Positions 13,352-61,703 of a stretch of DNA of 64,000 nt are shown here, in pieces; within the stretch, counting starts at the first letter, position 1, and each line of letters begins with the position of its first letter. A program made the position numbers and the translations under genes. The stretch spans positions 1-64,000 of the forward strand of contig JAJZIJ010000001.1 of NCBI GenBank assembly GCA_021810625.1. The letters are read 5' to 3'. Under the pieces are notes generated by a model. It ran no database searches. It worked only from the letters and a program-made list of their open reading frames with translations, and had not been told where the DNA came from. This stretch comes from Acidobacteriota bacterium (GTDB lineage: Bacteria; Acidobacteriota; Terriglobia; Terriglobales; Acidobacteriaceae).

Positions 13352-14443
13352 ATGGCACGGAAAAAAATGAAGATCGAGCGCGTCCTCATCTATCGTCTGG
13401 GTAGTCTCGGCGATACGGTTGTCGCGCTTCCCTGCTTCCATCAAATTGCGCAGGCCTTCCCCCACGCCGAGCGGCGTCTGTTGACCAATGTTCCCGTGCA
13501 TGGCAAAGCGCCAGCGGCCTATTCTGTGCTCGAAGGTTCTGGCCTTATCGCCGACAGCGACTCCCTGCGCTATCCCATCGGTACGCGCAATTTTTCTGAA
13601 CTGCTTGCGCTGCGTCGCCAGATTCGCCAGTGGCGTCCGCAGGTGCTGGTCTACCTCACCGCGCGCAGGCGCTGGCAACAGGTCGCGCGCGATGTGGCTT
13701 TTTTTCGATTCTGCGGCATTCCGCGAATCATTGGTGCGCAGGTCTCCCAGGACATGCGCTTCAACCGCGTGGACGCGACCAGCGGCATCTATGAACAAGA
13801 AGCCTTTCGACTGGCGCGAACCCTGCACGCTCTTGGGGAGATTGATATCTCCAACGCCGCCAACTGGAATCTGCGCCTCTCGCCTGCCGAAAATGCTCGC
13901 GCTCAGCAGGAGTTGCTCCCTCTCGGCAACCGTCATTTTTTCGCCTGTAGTATGGGCACAAAAGTTCCGGCCAATGATTGGGGCGGCGATAATTGGCGCG
14001 CGGTTTTGCGCTCACTGGCGCAGCAATATCCTGACCTTGGCTTGGTTCTGATCGGCGCGCCGGAGGAACGGGCCGCCAGCGACCTTGCCGCAACCGAGTG
14101 GCAGGGCCGCTGCATCAATCTCTGCGGCAATCTCACGCCGCGCGAATCCGCCGCTGTGCTGGTGCGCGCGCGGCTCTTTCTAGGCCACAATAGCGGCCCC
14201 ATGCATTTGGCCGCCGCCGTACAAACCCGCTGCGTGGCCGTTTTTGCCGCGCGCGACCGCGAAGGCGTGTGGTTCCCCTGTGGTGTCGGGCATAAAGTTT
14301 TTTACCACCGCACCGACTGCTGGGGCTGCGGTCTGGAAGTCTGCATCAAACAGCGCAAGAAATGTTTAACAGCCATTCAGCCGGAGGCTGTACTCTCCGC
14401 CGTGCAAGCTGTCCTCACCGCTCCATCAGAAGAGTCATTCTGA
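13352..14443 (+). CDS. glycosyltransferase family 9 (heptosyltransferase-like)
   Basis: 363 residues. The N-terminus RVLIYRLGSLGDTVVALP is the typical GT9/ADP-heptose:LPS heptosyltransferase start. The C-terminal half has FLGHNSGPMHLAAAV, the nucleotide-sugar site of the family. Such enzymes add heptose or similar sugars to the LPS core at the inner membrane. The ATG at 13352 is used; ATG 13367 (MKIERV) is an equally plausible start. It is divergent from nuoI with starts only about 16 bases apart. The last codons (ESF, stop) are supplied by a dispersed palindromic repeat, so the original C-terminus may have been replaced. Confidence 0.85.
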   Translation: MARKKMKIERVLIYRLGSLGDTVVALPCFHQIAQAFPHAERRLLTNVPVHGKAPAAYSVLEGSGLIADSDSLRYPIGTRNFSELLALRRQIRQWRPQVLVYLTARRRWQQVARDVAFFRFCGIPRIIGAQVSQDMRFNRVDATSGIYEQEAFRLARTLHALGEIDISNAANWNLRLSPAENARAQQELLPLGNRHFFACSMGTKVPANDWGGDNWRAVLRSLAQQYPDLGLVLIGAPEERAASDLAATEWQGRCINLCGNLTPRESAAVLVRARLFLGHNSGPMHLAAAVQTRCVAVFAARDREGVWFPCGVGHKVFYHRTDCWGCGLEVCIKQRKKCLTAIQPEAVLSAVQAVLTAPSEESF

Positions 14444-54057: not shown

Positions 54058-54864
54058 TCAGAGCTTTCCCGGGCTGGACGCGGCTGGAACCCCTACTGGA
54101 ATCCCCACTTGATCCATCTCCAGAAAATGCTGCAACGCTGGGTCTGTACTCTGCCGCATCTGCTCCAGGGTTCCAAAGAACCTGGCCTTGGACTCGTGGA
54201 GAAAAAGCACCCGGTCGGCCAATGTCTCGGCAAAGCGCATGTCGTGCGTCACCACCACGCTGGTCAACTTCAACTGCCGCTTCACTTTCTGGAGCAAATT
54301 TGCCAAAAGATGCGCCATGACCGGATCGACCATCGTCGTGGGTTCGTCGTAGAGAATGGCCTCCGGCTGGGCAGCCAGCGCCCGCGCAATGGCCACCGAG
54401 CGCCGCATCCCCGTCGACAGGTCGGCGGGGAGCAACGCGGACATCTCCGTCACGCCCACCATCGCCAGCAGACCGCGCACGACCTGCTCAATTTGATCCT
54501 CCAGCAAGTCTCCGCGCTCACGCAGGGGGAAGGCGACATTCTCGGCCACGCTCATGGAATCAAAGAGCGCGCCATTCTGAAAGACCATCGTCACCTTGCG
54601 CCGCACTGACTGCAATTGCTCTTCGGTGAAGTTGGTGATGTCCTCTCCATCCACAAGGATTTTCCCGGAATCCGGCTTCAGAAATCCCATGATTTGCTGC
54701 AACGCCACGGATTTCCCCACGCCGCTGCGACCAATGATGCACAGCGTCTCTCCGGGGAGAACATGGAAGCTAACGTTATCGAGTACGCACATATCCCCAA
54801 ACGCCTTCGAGACATTCTCGAAGGCAATGTAGGGGGCAGCGTCAGCGTAAATGCGCGTGTTCAT
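54058..54864 (-). CDS. ABC transporter ATP-binding protein, MlaF-like
   Basis: 268 residues. Walker A is GRSGVGKS (45-52), Walker B is AILYDEPTTMVDP, and the switch His is in VVVTHDMR. The signature is LSTGMRRSVAIARALA, where most ABC ATPases have LSGG. The MlaF family transports phospholipids between outer and inner membrane with MlaE and MlaD, neither of which is next to it here. It is solitary on its strand. Ttg2A/MlaF is favoured over an amino-acid type because of FQNGALFDSMSVAENVAFPLRE, typical for the group. Confidence 0.82.
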   Translation of the reverse strand: MNTRIYADAAPYIAFENVSKAFGDMCVLDNVSFHVLPGETLCIIGRSGVGKSVALQQIMGFLKPDSGKILVDGEDITNFTEEQLQSVRRKVTMVFQNGALFDSMSVAENVAFPLRERGDLLEDQIEQVVRGLLAMVGVTEMSALLPADLSTGMRRSVAIARALAAQPEAILYDEPTTMVDPVMAHLLANLLQKVKRQLKLTSVVVTHDMRFAETLADRVLFLHESKARFFGTLEQMRQSTDPALQHFLEMDQVGIPVGVPAASSPGKL

Positions 54865-54968
54865 CCTGTCTATGAAGATACCGGAGGAACGGAGGATTGG
54901 GAGATTTTCGTCTGGGAACCAGAGATCGAGAGACTCAGGTTGGAATGTTCAAATGCACACAGCGAAGC

Positions 54969-55041
54969 GTCATTTTGAGCAAAGCGAAGAATCCAGCGAA
55001 TCATGGCTGCATCGACGAAGCGAGTCCCCTCTGGATTCTTC
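54969..55041. repeat. palindromic dispersed repeat, copy 2
   Basis: GTCATTTTGAG at the left is followed by GCGAAGAATCCAG, and the inverse CTGGATTCTTC ends it at 55041. The right outer arm of the copy at 14434-14529 is lost. It sits just before the his promoter. Confidence 0.75.
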
Positions 55042-55059
55042 ACTCCATCCTCAAACATT

Positions 55060-55087
55060 TTGACATTCTTATGACTTTTGATATCCT
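55060..55087 (+). promoter_or_regulatory. candidate his operon promoter
   Basis: A perfect TTGACA (55060-55065), a 16-base spacer and TATCCT (55082-55087). Transcription would begin at about 55094, the A of the leader-peptide ATG, so the mRNA could be leaderless at its 5' end. Confidence 0.55.
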
Positions 55088-55093
55088 TTCGGT

Positions 55094-55177
55094 ATGCAGC
55101 TTCACGGACATCACCGTCATCCCCATCATCATGCCTTGGCGGGCGTGTCAGCGAAGCTTTCTGAGCCGAATTCCTAA
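55094..55177 (+). CDS. hisL: His operon leader peptide
   Basis: A 27-residue open frame ATG 55094 to TAA 55175-55177. Residues 4-13 read HGHHRHPHHH, with seven His codons in ten. This is the hallmark of a histidine attenuation leader: ribosome stalling at the His codons when charged tRNA-His is scarce favours readthrough. The peptide is too short for common gene calling. No good Shine-Dalgarno precedes it, and the candidate promoter places the RNA 5' end at the ATG itself. hisI starts 96 bases after the leader stop. Confidence 0.8.
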   Translation: MQLHGHHRHPHHHALAGVSAKLSEPNS

Positions 55178-55204
55178 GCATCACCAAGATTCAGCAAATC
55201 AGAC

Positions 55205-55238
55205 AGCCCGCAGATGCGCTCAGCATCCGCGGGCTTTT
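55205..55238 (+). terminator. his attenuator hairpin
   Basis: AGCCCGC (55205-55211) pairs with GCGGGCT (55229-55235). After an A-C mismatch, GATGC pairs with GCATC, with a GCTCA loop and TTTT at 55235-55238. A competing antiterminator could form between CTGAGC (55161-55166, inside the leader frame) and GCTCAG (55218-55223). It stands between the His-rich leader and hisI, as expected for an attenuator. Confidence 0.75.
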
Positions 55239-55273
55239 CCTTGCCCGTCTACACTACAAAGAGAGAAAACAGC

Positions 55274-55660
55274 ATGACAACAGCAACATCCACGGAAATT
55301 AAGCTCGACTTCAGCAAACTCGATGGCCTGCTCCCCGGCATTGTGCAGGATGCGGCCACCGGCGCGGTTCTCATGGTCGGCTTTCTAAATGAAGAGAGCT
55401 ACCAGAAAACATTGGCCTCCGGCTTCGTCACCTTTTGGAGCCGCACCCGCAACAAGCTCTGGATGAAGGGCGAGACCAGCGGCAATCGTCTGCGCATCGT
55501 CGAAACCCTTACCGATTGCGATACAGACACGCTGCTCTTCCGCGTCGTCGTCGAAGGCGACGGCCTTGTTTGCCACGAAGGCACGGTAAGCTGCTTCACA
55601 AAGCCGATTGCGCTTGCGCCCACAGCCAACACCACGTCCACCAACAAGGGGAAACAATAA
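55274..55660 (+). CDS. hisI: phosphoribosyl-AMP cyclohydrolase
   Basis: 128 residues from ATG 55274 with GAGAG upstream. The metal site [10 protein letters not shown] and [12 protein letters not shown] carries the Cys and His ligands. It opens the purine ring of phosphoribosyl-AMP in histidine synthesis. It is the stand-alone HisI, without the HisE pyrophosphohydrolase domain fused in many bacteria. First structural gene of the operon. Stop and hisG start overlap as TAATG. Confidence 0.93.
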
Positions 55661-56544
55661 TGAGTACGCCAAATAATAAACTCCGCCTGGGCATCCCCAA
55701 AGGCAGCTTGCAGGACGCGACCATTGCTCTGTTTGAGCGCGCAGGCTGGCGCATCTTTGTCAGCAGCCGCTCCTATTTTCCTGGCATCGACGACACGGAA
55801 ATTGAGTGCATGTTAATCCGCGCACAGGAGATGTCGCGGTACGTCGCGCACGGCGCGCTCGATGTTGGACTCACCGGTAATGACTGGGTGGTGGAAAATG
55901 GACTCGACGTGGCTAGCGTCACGAGTCTCACCTACTCCAAACAGAGCCGCCAGAAGGTGAAATGGGTACTGGCCGTGCCGGAGGATTCTCCCTACCAGCG
56001 CGCCGAAGACCTGGACGGCAAGATCATCGCGACGGAACTGGTCGAAGCAACGAAAAAATACTTCGCCAGCAAAAAAGTCTCCGTCAAAGTGGAGTTTAGT
56101 TGGGGCGCGACCGAAGTGAAGCCGCCGATGCTGGCTGACGCAATTGTCGAAGTCACCGAGACGGGCAGTTCGCTGCGCGCCAATCGCCTGCGCATCATCG
56201 ACACGTTGATGGAGAGCGAGACGCAGTTGATCGCCAATCGCGCCGCCTACGCCGATGGATGGAAGAAGCAGAAGATCGACAACATCGCGATGATGCTGCA
56301 AGGCGCGATTGCCGCGCAGGGTCAGGTGGGAATGATGATGAATGCGCGCAAGGCCGATCTGCCTGCGGTTCTGACGGTGCTGCCTGCGCTCAACTCTCCA
56401 ACAATTTCCACGCTGAGCGATCCGGCGTGGGTGGCGTTGAACACCATCCTCGACGAACGCGCAGTGCGCGATGTGATTCCAAAACTGAAGGCAGCAGGCG
56501 CTACCGGTATTGTGGAATATCCACTCAGCAAAATTGTGCTGTAG
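55660..56544 (+). CDS. hisG: ATP phosphoribosyltransferase, long form
   Basis: 294 residues, the long HisG with a C-terminal regulatory ACT-like domain (from about residue 220). The N-terminal PRPP-type loop is [13 protein letters not shown], and [11 protein letters not shown] starts the protein. It catalyses the first, histidine-feedback-inhibited step. Long HisG does not need HisZ, which is absent here. It overlaps hisI by one base. Confidence 0.95.
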
Positions 56545-56589
56545 AAAAATAAGCAGCATTGTTTCGCAATTTAAGGAACAGCAAAGGCC

Positions 56590-57894
56590 ATGAAGACCCT
56601 CGCCACCTTCGGACGCTCCGCAAAACGCGCAGAAGCATTGCTGCGCCAACTCGAAGAGCGCTCCTCCGTTGCGACCACGCAGCTTGAACCAGCCGTGCGC
56701 CGCATTCTGCTTGCGGTTCGCCGCAGCGGGGATGCTGGCCTGCGTCGTTATGCCAGCAAGCTCGACGGCCTTGCAGCGGAGACTCCACTGCGCGTCAGCC
56801 GCGAGGAGATGGCGGCGGCGTGGCGCGAAACTCCGAAAGAACTGCGGCAGTCCCTGCAAATTGCGGCGAAGAACATTCGCCGCTTCGCGCAATGGCAGAT
56901 GCCGAAGAATTGGACGCGAAAGGCGGAAGCTGGTCTGCAACTCGGCCAGCGCTGCCTGCCCTTGGCTTCGGTCGGCTGCTATGTTCCGGGCGGTCGCTAT
57001 CCGTTGCCTTCCACCTTATTGATGATCGTTCTCCCCGCGCAGGTGGCGGGCGTGGGGCGCATCGTCGTTGTCTCGCCGCGTCCCGTAAAAGAAACTCTCG
57101 CCGCCGCGCACTTGGCTGGCGTTACCGAGTTCTATCGCATTGGCGGCGCGCAGGCCGTGGCAGCTTTGGCCTACGGCACGCCGAGTATTCCTCGCGTTGA
57201 CAAAATTGTCGGCCCCGGAAATCTCTACGTGACCACGGCAAAAAAACTGGTCGCGTTCGATTGCGGCATCGACATGCTCGCCGGGCCAACGGAAATCGTA
57301 GTCGCCAGCGAGAATGGCGATTCAGCATTCATTGCCTCCGATCTTGTCGCGCAGGCTGAGCACGATCCCAACGCTCTGGCCGTTTTCGTCACCAGCAATG
57401 CAGCGCTTGCCAGGGCCGTCGATCTGCAAGTGCAAAAACAAGCTGTCGGCAATGCAATTGCTCAGCAATCTCTCAAAAAAAATGGATACATCCTTATCAC
57501 GGCATCGCCAAAAGATACCGCGACAGTTACAAATCGCCTCGCGCCGGAACACCTCTCGATTGATCGTGAGAGCGATCTGCAATGGGTGCGCCATGCAGGC
57601 TCCATCTTCATTGGAGCGGACACGCCGCAGAGTATGGGAGATTACATCTCCGGGCCGAATCATGTTTTACCCACGGGCCGCATCGCGCGCACTCGCGCCG
57701 GACTCAGCGTGTATGACTTTCTGCGCGTTGTGACCACGCAGAGCTACACGGCCAAGGGACTCGGAATCTTGGGGCCGCACGCCATTCGCATTGCGGAGGC
57801 TGAAGGTCTGCGTGGCCATGCGGCATCCGTGCGCGCGCGGTTGCAGACTGCAAAAGCATCATCCAGAAAGCGCAAGGAGGCCACAGCATCGTGA
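56590..57894 (+). CDS. hisD: histidinol dehydrogenase
   Basis: 434 residues, usual length. Motifs: GGRYPLPSTLLM (substrate region), GPTEIVVASENGD, LAPEHLSIDRE (zinc site His region) and SGPNHVLPTGRIAR. It converts histidinol to histidine with two NAD+. A 45-base gap precedes it, and its stop overlaps hisC (GTGA). The hisC Shine-Dalgarno AAGGAGG lies inside its last codons. Confidence 0.95.
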   Translation: MKTLATFGRSAKRAEALLRQLEERSSVATTQLEPAVRRILLAVRRSGDAGLRRYASKLDGLAAETPLRVSREEMAAAWRETPKELRQSLQIAAKNIRRFAQWQMPKNWTRKAEAGLQLGQRCLPLASVGCYVPGGRYPLPSTLLMIVLPAQVAGVGRIVVVSPRPVKETLAAAHLAGVTEFYRIGGAQAVAALAYGTPSIPRVDKIVGPGNLYVTTAKKLVAFDCGIDMLAGPTEIVVASENGDSAFIASDLVAQAEHDPNALAVFVTSNAALARAVDLQVQKQAVGNAIAQQSLKKNGYILITASPKDTATVTNRLAPEHLSIDRESDLQWVRHAGSIFIGADTPQSMGDYISGPNHVLPTGRIARTRAGLSVYDFLRVVTTQSYTAKGLGILGPHAIRIAEAEGLRGHAASVRARLQTAKASSRKRKEATAS

Positions 57895-58982
57895 CTTTAT
57901 CTGCAAGCACCACGCTGCGCCCACGCAGTGCCGTGGAACGAATGAGCGAATATCATCCGCCGCTGGCTGGACGCGATGGCCTGCGTCTGGACTTCAACGA
58001 GAACACGCTCGCTCCTTCGCCACGAGTGGCCGCCGTGCTCCAGCGCATCAGCGCCGAGGGGCTTACAAAATATCCAGAGCGAGAGCCGTCCGAGCGCATC
58101 GCCGCCGCGCACTTTGGACTTGCGGCCAACGCCGTGTTGCTGACCAACGGCGTGGATGAAGCCCTGCATCTGGTCTGCGAAACGTATCTGGAGCCGGAGG
58201 ACGAGGTCATCGTTGTCACTCCCACCTTCTCCATGTACGCGCTTTACGCGGAGGCAACCGGAGCGAAGGTGCGATCCATTCAATCCGACGCGACCTTGCA
58301 GTTCCCTGCCGCGCGCGTGCTGGAAGCGATTCGTCCGAACACGCGGCTCATTATGATCGCGTCGCCCAACAACCCCACCGGGGCCATTGTCGGCAACGAT
58401 GTGCTGTTGGAAATTGCGGCCAAAACACCGCAGGCTGCGCTTCTGGTCGATGAGGCCTACTACCACTTCCACGGCGAGTCTGTTCTTTCTGCAACCGCCA
58501 CGGTTACAAATCTTTTTGTGGCGCGCACCTTCTCCAAAGCTTACGGGCTGGCGGGGCTGCGTATTGGCCTGCTTGCCGGACATCCCGATGCCATGAAGTT
58601 TGTTCGCAAGGTCAGCTCGCCTTACAACGTCAACAGCGTGGCGCTGGAGTGCCTGCCAGAGGCGCTGGCAGATGAAGCCTACATTGACTGGTACGCGGAG
58701 CAGGTGCGCGAATCCCGCGAGGAGCTTGCATCTGCGTTGGAGCAACTCCATGTTCCCTACTGGCCAAGCCACGCGAATTTTATTTTGATGAAGATTGGCG
58801 CGGCGTACGCTGCCGTTGTGGAGGGAATGCGTCGACGCGGCATTTTAATCCGCGACCGCAGCAAAGACCCCGGCTGTGATGGCTGCGTGCGCATCACCGT
58901 CGGGCCACGCGAACATACCCAACGCGGCATCGCCGCATTGCAAGAGACATTGAAGGAGTTGCAATGGCAACCGGAAAAATAA
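57891..58982 (+). CDS. hisC: histidinol-phosphate aminotransferase
   Basis: 363 residues, beginning at GTG 57891 with AAGGAGG about 10 bases upstream. It is a class I/II PLP aminotransferase: [15 protein letters not shown] holds the Schiff-base Lys, [10 protein letters not shown] the Asn, and [14 protein letters not shown] the early phosphate-binding segment. It makes histidinol phosphate. hisB starts 19 bases before its stop. Confidence 0.94.
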
Positions 58983-59572
58983 AATCTCGAACGGCAACGC
59001 TGGATCGCAATACGACCGAGACAAAAATTAAGTTGCGCCTTGCCATCGAAGGCCAGGGGCGCTATACGATCCAGACGGGCATTCGCTTCTTCGATCACAT
59101 GCTGGAGCTATTCACGCGCCACGGCGGATTTGATCTCACCTTGCAATGCAAGGGCGATCTGGATGTCGATCAACATCACACCGTCGAAGACGTAGGCATT
59201 GCGCTCGGCGAGGCATTCGATCAGGCGCTTGGCGATAAAAAAGGCATTCTTCGCGCCGGATATTTTTTGATGCCAATGGATGAAACCCTCGCGATCGCCG
59301 CCATCGATCTGAGCGGGCGCACGGCCTGCGTCGTCGATGCCAAGGTGCGCGTGCGTCTGGTTGGCGACCTGCAAACGGAGTTGCTGTACGACTTTTTTGA
59401 AGGCTTCGCGCGTGGAGCACGCGCCAATGTCCACCTGAAGGTTCTGTATGGCCGTTCCAATCACCATAAGATTGAGGCCGTCTTCAAGGCCTTTGCGCGC
59501 GCGCTGCGCTTTGCCTGCTCCCGCGACCAGCAATTGCGCGACATGCTGCCCAGCACCAAGGGACTTCTATGA
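58964..59572 (+). CDS. hisB: imidazoleglycerol-phosphate dehydratase
   Basis: 202 residues, monofunctional. The Mn site motifs [12 protein letters not shown] and [16 protein letters not shown] are present. There is no histidinol-phosphatase domain fused, unlike E. coli HisB, and no separate hisN occurs in the operon. It overlaps hisC by 19 bases and hisH by 4. Confidence 0.95.
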
Positions 59573-60168
59573 TCGCTGTTGTCGATTATCGCGCAGGCAA
59601 TCTCACCTCCGTCTGCAAGGCGCTGCGCGCGCTGGGATGCGAGCCGCTGGTGACTGCCGATCCTGACGCTTTGCGCACGGCAGAAAAAATTATTCTTCCC
59701 GGCGTCGGCCACTTTGCCGCAACGGAGAGGCTCTTTCAATCCGGGCTGGCCGCAGCCATTCAGCAGCGCGTTGCCGAAGGCGCGCTCTTCCTGGGTATCT
59801 GCGTTGGCTTGCAGTGGATTTTTAGCGGAAGCACAGAGGCTCCCACGGTTCCAGGACTGAATGTTTTCCCAGAACAATGCGAGCGCTTTCCTGATTCCGT
59901 GAAATGTCCGCATGTGGGATGGAATTCTCTCGATGTCATTCGTCCCTCGCGGCTGCTGCGCGGGCTGGCTCCCGCGACACATGTGTATTTCACGCATTCC
60001 TACCGCGCTCCCACGATACATGCAACCGTGGCGGTTACAAATTATGCTGGAGAGTTTTCCTCTGTCGTCGAAGATAAAAACTGGATGGCCGTTCAGTTTC
60101 ATCCAGAAAAATCTGGCGCTGCCGGACTGAAAATTTTGCAGAACTTTTTGGAGTTGCCCGCATGTTGA
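59569..60168 (+). CDS. hisH: imidazole glycerol phosphate synthase subunit HisH
   Basis: 199 residues. It is a class I glutamine amidotransferase, with GICVGLQW carrying the Cys nucleophile and FHPEKS carrying the His-Glu pair. It supplies ammonia to HisF. It overlaps hisB (ATGA) and hisF (7 bases), a tight translational coupling expected for the HisHF complex. Confidence 0.95.
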
Positions 60169-60950
60169 CGCGAAGAATCATCGCATGTCTCGATGTAACA
60201 GCAGGGCGCGTGGTAAAAGGAGTGCAGTTTGTCGGTCTGCGTGATGCGGGTGATCCGGCAGAACTGGCCGAGCGCCATGTGCAGGGCGGCGCGGACGAAA
60301 TTGTTTTTCTCGACATCACGGCCACGCACGAAGGCCGCGATACGTTACTGAATGCCGTACAACGAACAGCCGAGCGCATCTTTGTTCCGCTCACTGTCGG
60401 CGGCGGCATTCGCGCACTAGAGGATGCAGCGCGAGTTTTTGATGCGGGGGCCGACAAGATCAGCCTGAACTCCGCGGCTATTACGCAGCCGAAATTGATC
60501 GAAGAAATCGGCGCTCGTTTTGGAGCGCAGGCCGTCGTCGTGGCCATTGATGCGCGTCGCGCCCTGCCCAATCAAACGGAGCGCGTTGCTTCCGAATTGG
60601 CTGAGGTCTACATCAACGGCGGACGCAAAGCCACAGGAAAGCGCGTGCTGGATTGGGCGAGAGAAGCCGAGCAACGAGGCGGCGGAGAGATTCTGCTCAC
60701 GTCAATGGACGCGGATGGAACGCGCAATGGATTCGATTGCGAACTGACCGCTGCCGTCAGCCAGGCCGTGCAGATTCCAGTCATCGCCTCTGGAGGCGCG
60801 GGCACTGTCAATCATTTTGTCGATGTATTTACGCGGGGCCATGCAGACGCGGCGCTTGCGGCCAGTATCTTCCATTACGGAATGATGGATGCGCGCGCGC
60901 TCAAAGAACAACTCGCAGCGCGTGGACTCTCCATGCGTCTGCCCTGTTGA
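60162..60950 (+). CDS. hisF: imidazole glycerol phosphate synthase subunit HisF
   Basis: 262 residues, TIM-barrel. [18 protein letters not shown] holds the N-terminal catalytic Asp, and [12 protein letters not shown] the second Asp. Two phosphate sites (VGGGIR and ASGGAGT) show the duplicated half-barrel. It makes IGP and AICAR using HisH-derived ammonia. A 42-base gap leads to hisA. Confidence 0.96.
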
Positions 60951-60992
60951 AACAAACATAAAAAATATCAACGCGAGGATGAAGAAACCGAG

Positions 60993-61703
60993 ATGCTGCT
61001 TCCTGCCATTGATTTAATGGGCGGCCAGATTGTGCAACTGGTGCAAGGCGAGCGACTGGCGCTGCAATTTGACGACTTTGAATACTGGATCGAACGTTTT
61101 GCGGCATACAAGCTGGTGCAGCTTATCGACCTCGATGCCGCCAAGCGACAAGGCGACAATCGCGCCTTGATCGAACGCATTCTGCAACGGCTTCCCTGTC
61201 AGGTGGGCGGCGGCATTCGCTCTGTCGCCGATGCTCGCGCCCTGCTGGATATGGGGGCGGTGCGCGTCATCTTTGGCTCGTCTCTTTTTACCGCGCCAGA
61301 AACATCGAACGCCGCCACCGCTTCTCCGCAGGATTGCGTGCGCATGGATTTTGCAAAAAATCTTGCGGAGGAGATCGGTAGAGAACGTCTGGCCTTCAGT
61401 GTCGATACCAAGGGCGGCACCGTTGCCGTTCGCGGCTGGCAACAGAACATTGCCCTGCGCCCGGAACAGGCGATGGAAATCCTGGAGCCGTACTGCGCGG
61501 CCTTCCTCTACACACACGTCGATACCGAGGGTTTAATGCAGGGCTTTCCTTACGAAATCGCAGCGCAATTGCGCGCGCTTACCCAACGGCAGTTGATCGT
61601 GGCTGGAGGCATCCGCGAACGCAGCGAGATCGACGCTCTGGACGCTATCGGCGTGGATGCCGTAGCGGGCATGGCTGTTTACACTGGCCTTCTCGCGACA
61701 TAA
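60993..61703 (+). CDS. hisA: phosphoribosylformimino-AICAR-P isomerase
   Basis: 236 residues. LPAIDLMGGQIVQLVQG starts the barrel, VGGGIRSVADAR and AGGIRERSEIDAL form the phosphate sites, and HVDTEG has the expected Asp. A loop near FTAPETSNAATASPQD is longer than in usual HisA. It isomerises ProFAR to PRFAR. It is the last his gene; hisE was not found in the operon. Confidence 0.93.
   Translation: MLLPAIDLMGGQIVQLVQGERLALQFDDFEYWIERFAAYKLVQLIDLDAAKRQGDNRALIERILQRLPCQVGGGIRSVADARALLDMGAVRVIFGSSLFTAPETSNAATASPQDCVRMDFAKNLAEEIGRERLAFSVDTKGGTVAVRGWQQNIALRPEQAMEILEPYCAAFLYTHVDTEGLMQGFPYEIAAQLRALTQRQLIVAGGIRERSEIDALDAIGVDAVAGMAVYTGLLAT

Follow-up and report, generated by a model that had tools for sequence, protein, structure and literature searches.

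The classical attenuator of histidine biosynthesis is the enterobacterial hisL leader (Rfam RF00514), which has seven His codons, ribosome stalling and a mutually exclusive antiterminator and terminator ahead of the his operon. Outside the Proteobacteria, his RNA attenuators have been predicted in Firmicutes, namely in the Bacillus cereus group, Peptostreptococcaceae and Erysipelotrichales (PMC9413887), and his leader peptides have been predicted for hisZ/hisS* leaders (PMC2965389). A comparative survey from 2005 found no conserved RNA structure upstream of actinobacterial histidine operons (PMC1262725). Leaderless attenuator leader peptides have been mapped in Streptomyces lividans for leuL, trpL, ilvL and metL (PMC8079986).

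Here, we analyzed a region upstream of hisI in a stretch of 64,000 nucleotides of DNA from a member of the Acidobacteriaceae, in the phylum Acidobacteriota (the window). It holds a short frame rich in His codons, a terminator before the first gene of the operon and an antiterminator that competes for the 5' arm of that terminator. Judged by comparison across relatives, the element is almost certainly a ribosome-mediated transcription attenuator of the his operon. It shares with enterobacterial hisL the seven His codons, the place before the operon, the two mutually exclusive structures and, presumably, ribosome stalling. In contrast to hisL, the operon begins with hisI, the His codons are interrupted, the antiterminator strand (segment 2) lies inside the frame, there is no Shine-Dalgarno sequence and the predicted start is near-leaderless. 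The RF00514 model gave the top bit score and the best E-value of 4227 Rfam models here, with a full-length alignment, but its 20.6 bits in the window fall short of the gathering threshold of 49. By analogy, the element would work like the enteric his attenuator while standing outside the Rfam His_leader family, and it may have arisen independently of its proteobacterial counterpart.

The S. lividans leaders likewise combine a leader peptide on a leaderless mRNA with downstream hairpin structures (PMC8079986), although they concern other amino acids in another phylum. The predicted, not proven, Firmicutes leaders also have His codons with a terminator and an antiterminator outside the Proteobacteria, but they belong to different lineages, have different sequences and, in the available parts of the sources, are not reported to have a near-leaderless start. 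A search of the open literature (subscription papers lay outside its scope) found no his attenuator, and no such combination of features, described for Acidobacteriota. An earlier note on this DNA had known of no case in the phylum, which agrees with our search. Its view that his attenuation is classically shown in enterics proved too narrow given the Firmicutes predictions, and the contrast is narrowed further by the leaderless attenuator peptides already mapped in S. lividans. We read the element as a his attenuator whose leader very probably has a near-leaderless start, in a phylum whose attenuators were largely unannotated.

Leader frame, his operon and promoter

All features described below are on the forward strand unless stated otherwise. 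The leader frame (55094-55177) has 27 codons followed by TAA and translates as MQLHGHHRHPHHHALAGVSAKLSEPNS, with His at residues 4, 6, 7, 9, 11, 12 and 13 (codons across 55103-55132). The 27-codon frame with seven His in residues 4-13 upstream of hisI, as first noticed, was thus confirmed. The hisI gene (55274-55660; phosphoribosyl-AMP cyclohydrolase, NCBIfam NF000768 above cut-off) is the first of the operon, and the remaining genes occupy 55660-61703, with hisG starting at 55660, hisD at 56590, hisC at 57891, hisB at 58964, hisH at 59569, hisF at 60162 and hisA at 60993. The operon downstream of the leader, hisI-G-D-C-B-H-F-A, is complete. Since the upstream neighbor, an ABC-transporter ATPase gene (54058-54864, minus strand), is divergent, the leader hairpin is not the terminator of that gene. 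In a GTDB contig scan, the closest named relatives were the Acidobacteriaceae Terriglobus roseus, Granulicella and Terracidiphilus gabretensis, and the plasmid collection searched gave no match.

The promoter at 55060-55087 consists of a -35 TTGACA (55060-55065) and an extended -10, TGA-TATCCT, with its hexamer at 55082-55087. TTGACA-16-TATCCT with the extended -10 TG was the only sigma-70-like site in 54860-55400. Six bases separate the -10 from the ATG, and therefore the predicted +1 (55094) is the A of the ATG. Across 59 leaders, TTGACA (at least 5 of 6 bases) was found 43 to 34 nt before the start codon in 48, where about 3 were expected, and its spacing to the leader start peaks at -39/-38. 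The start codons in this count were picked blind to the promoter, because choosing them by the promoter would make the spacing circular. The -10 ends 6-12 nt before the leader ATG in most leaders, which gives a predicted 5' UTR of 0 nt in this species and of about 0-5 nt in the others. The -10 hexamers of the relatives are often weak; the promoter in the window is a consensus match. No Shine-Dalgarno sequence is seen before the leader frame, where there is no space for one, unlike before hisI, and the median Shine-Dalgarno energies are +0.3 kcal/mol for the leader and -5.9 kcal/mol for hisI. In Acidobacteria, about 13% of genes have been estimated to be leaderless (PMC3160421).

Taken together, the promoter spacing and the Shine-Dalgarno energies suggest that a near-leaderless start of the leader is likely, with an RNA 5' end that is predicted. 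Another possible explanation, to which we give a low probability, is that the same attenuator operates with a leader that is translated by re-initiation or from a longer 5' UTR, transcribed from a start far upstream. A promoter scan carries little weight, as shuffled sequences are expected to hold 0.4 such sites per 541 nt, and in most relatives the -10 ends 8-11 nt before the ATG, leaving a UTR of a few nucleotides. However, the recurrent TTGACA and the missing Shine-Dalgarno signal count against this explanation. The spacing of -38/-39 also recurs in most leaders of the other classes of the phylum, including those before hisG and hisD, and conservation with the congener ends immediately 5' of the -35. 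The suggestion that the leader is translated from a leaderless mRNA therefore gains from the conserved distance between promoter and ATG and the lack of a Shine-Dalgarno sequence. Since most relatives have a predicted UTR of a few nucleotides (about 1-5), the start is more safely called "leaderless or near-leaderless" than strictly leaderless.

A REP/MITE-like repeat (54967-55050, core TTTTGAGCAAAGCGAAGAATC) ends just 5' of the his -35. Its core has 16 copies in the genome, allowing up to 2 mismatches, and one other copy in this contig, at 14438. The repeat at 54967-55050 is missing from the corresponding place in the congener.

Terminator and antiterminator

The leader transcript (55094-55276) folds better than 200 of 200 shuffled sequences (z -3.9). 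An intrinsic terminator spans 55205-55238 and is made of a hairpin of segments 3 and 4 (55205-55235; -22.5 kcal/mol), followed by TTTTCC, with the U-tract at 55235-55238. The antiterminator strand, segment 2 (55140-55165), lies within the leader frame, where its core, CGTGTCAGCG, codes part of G-V-S-A. Segment 3 (55199-55222) can pair either with segment 2, giving the antiterminator, or with segment 4, giving the terminator. The pairing of segments 2 and 3 has an energy of -28.3 kcal/mol, which none of 200 shuffles equaled. In the minimum free energy fold, without a stalled ribosome, segment 1 (55098-55119), which covers the early His codons, pairs with 55137-55158 in a 1:2 hairpin (55098-55158).

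An alignment of 44 leaders of the family showed that both alternative structures are conserved. The family antiterminator is an 11-bp helix, CGTGTCRGCGG/CCGCTGACGCG, usually located 8 nt past the last His codon; the window has one A-A mismatch in this register. In the antiterminator, 87.6% of alignment cells are paired, versus 28-45% when the strands are slid against each other, and 7 of the 11 pairs have changes on both sides. The terminator is 92.7% paired, with double changes in 24 cells. Column 173, in segment 3, is U or C and is matched by its partner in segment 2 and by its partner in segment 4, each A or G; this double matching is the mark of two exclusive helices. True partners of segments 2 and 3 average -25.1 kcal/mol, compared to -21.15 (sd 0.39) for permuted partners, a difference reached in 0 of 20,000 permutations. 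The permutation and shuffle controls leave the relatedness of the sequences in, which inflates them, yet the effect is large. Both the GC-rich hairpin with TTTT and the possible antiterminator pairing of the earlier note were borne out, the former as 55205-55235 and the latter as 55140-55165 with 55199-55222. The check that it proposed, an alignment of the regions upstream of hisI in relatives, showed that His codons, hairpin and antiterminator are retained and co-vary.

The U-tract is short in the window (UUUUCC), which could fit a hairpin that controls translation of hisI by masking its start, or one that answers to a different kind of sensor, for example a T-box or a repressor that binds DNA. 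We consider these very unlikely. The hairpin ends 38 nt before the hisI start and leaves the ribosome binding site of hisI uncovered, most relatives have good U-tracts (UUUUUGUUU or similar), and no Rfam family, T-box included, reaches its gathering score in the window.

The attenuator reading was then considered in thermodynamic models of the 44 family leaders, in which the footprint of a ribosome was masked and the transcript ending at segment 3 was folded. With the ribosome on the first or the middle His codon, the antiterminator was the best structure in all 44 leaders, whereas with the ribosome at the stop codon it was retained in 43%. A ribosome at the last His codon overlaps part of segment 2, and the antiterminator was again found in 43%. 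In ribosome-free folds of the transcript up to the end of segment 3, about 59% of the relatives already favor the antiterminator. For the window, the modeled antiterminator has 19 pairs when the ribosome is stalled at the middle His codon and 0 when it is at the stop. At least 10 pairs form upon stalling in 95% of the real leaders versus 51% of shuffled controls, and therefore the contrast between stall and stop is partly plain geometry. The switch is thus thermodynamically feasible in these models.

Most likely, this RNA switch turns the his genes on when histidine is short. Transcription would start at or within a few nucleotides of the leader ATG, and the His-rich peptide would most likely be initiated, without a Shine-Dalgarno sequence, on an RNA that is leaderless or nearly so. 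With little charged tRNA-His, the ribosome would stall on the His codons at 55103-55132, keeping segment 1 unpaired and leaving segment 2 free to capture segment 3. The terminator would then not form, and RNA polymerase would continue into hisI-G-D-C-B-H-F-A. With ample histidine, the ribosome would reach the stop codon and segment 2 would be masked or would pair again with segment 1, so that the 3:4 hairpin and the U-tract could end transcription before hisI.

A natural variant of the switch is seen in the congener (L002, minus strand, within 1826-1985), where a 12-bp tandem duplication, AGCCCGCAGATT, leaves the terminator with its 5' arm present twice.

Conservation and distribution of the leader

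The His-rich frame was found upstream of hisI in all 30 loci of the first set, which comprised the window plus 29 relatives (most of them from the same family, others from the order and class), about 130-230 nt before the hisI match. Terriglobus roseus, Granulicella rosea and Terracidiphilus gabretensis, which are cultured relatives, all have the element. In a second set of loci, it was present at every Acidobacteriaceae hisI with sufficient upstream sequence and at several Vicinamibacterales-like and Bryobacteraceae loci. It was missing from a few loci of Acidobacteriota that do not belong to the family (L062, L078 and L095) and from all 43 hisI loci of Bacteroidota or other phyla. A terminator follows the leader in nearly all loci.

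A covariance model built on the 44 leaders picked out a single strong match in the genome of the window (99 bits), followed at 20 bits by the same hairpin on the opposite strand. Among 198 genomes sampled evenly across the phylum, the model matched all 21 Acidobacteriaceae, 15 of them outside the training set, with E-values of 7e-17 or better and each time beside hisI. Weak matches outside the family (E above about 1e-4) mostly corresponded to terminator hairpins alone and were left out of the count. In 20 loci, including the one in the window, Rfam gave no match at gathering thresholds. The covariance model is ready for annotation, where it is useful because none of the members tested is recovered by Rfam 15.

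Of 40 loci taken from other families in the phylum, 12 had a His-rich leader and a terminator before hisI, hisG or hisD, while the scan gave no leader in the other 28. The leader precedes whichever his gene is first in the operon. This placement bears on the explanation that the frame codes for a small peptide with a function, such as a His-rich metal binder, and is followed by an ordinary terminator. Metal-binding peptides typically have dense His runs as well, and the peptide sequence is kept: every substitution between the window and the congener is synonymous, both in the His run (CAC>CAT, CGT>CGC and CCC>CCT) and at CTT>CTA. The core of segment 2 and the spacer are identical between the two. 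However, a peptide with a function of its own would hardly follow the leading his gene, be it hisI, hisG or hisD. The antiterminator helix codes V-S-A in Acidobacteriaceae and other residues elsewhere, and therefore its conservation is best explained by the RNA rather than the peptide. The residues after the His run differ by class (VSA versus NGPAG) and track the RNA sequence complementary to the terminator arm, with which segment 2 co-varies. This leaves the functional peptide with a very slight probability. A chance His-rich frame before an unrelated terminator has nothing beyond the weak U-tract in its favor and can be dismissed, since the arrangement is kept with covariation in dozens of genera and at least seven His are expected in a given 10-codon stretch with a probability of about 3e-10 (assuming 2.25% His).

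As for the ribosome-mediated attenuator, we lean towards the view that it is an old trait in Acidobacteriota, present in several classes before whichever his gene comes first, with a sensor peptide that is started without a Shine-Dalgarno sequence on an mRNA that is leaderless or nearly so. If true, the start of translation would be coupled to the 5'-most nucleotides of the nascent RNA and not to a ribosome binding site. No leader peptide with a terminator was found upstream of leuA, trpE or ilvB in 85 loci of relatives (L218-L302), in a scan of the 600 nt upstream that considered only ATG starts and would overlook leaders of operons with a different first gene. Without a Leu, Trp or Ile/Val leader in that scan, attenuation by leader peptides may be special to his here.

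Two further observations concern single loci. In L179, L197, L212 and L214, from other families of the phylum, the leader stands before hisD or hisG where that gene opens the operon, and in most of them TTGACA lies at -38/-39 relative to the start of the leader. A contig labeled as a Cyanobacteria MAG (L055) has hisI with a Vicinamibacteria-like leader (NGPA motif), which probably reflects a mislabeled genome, or else a transfer.
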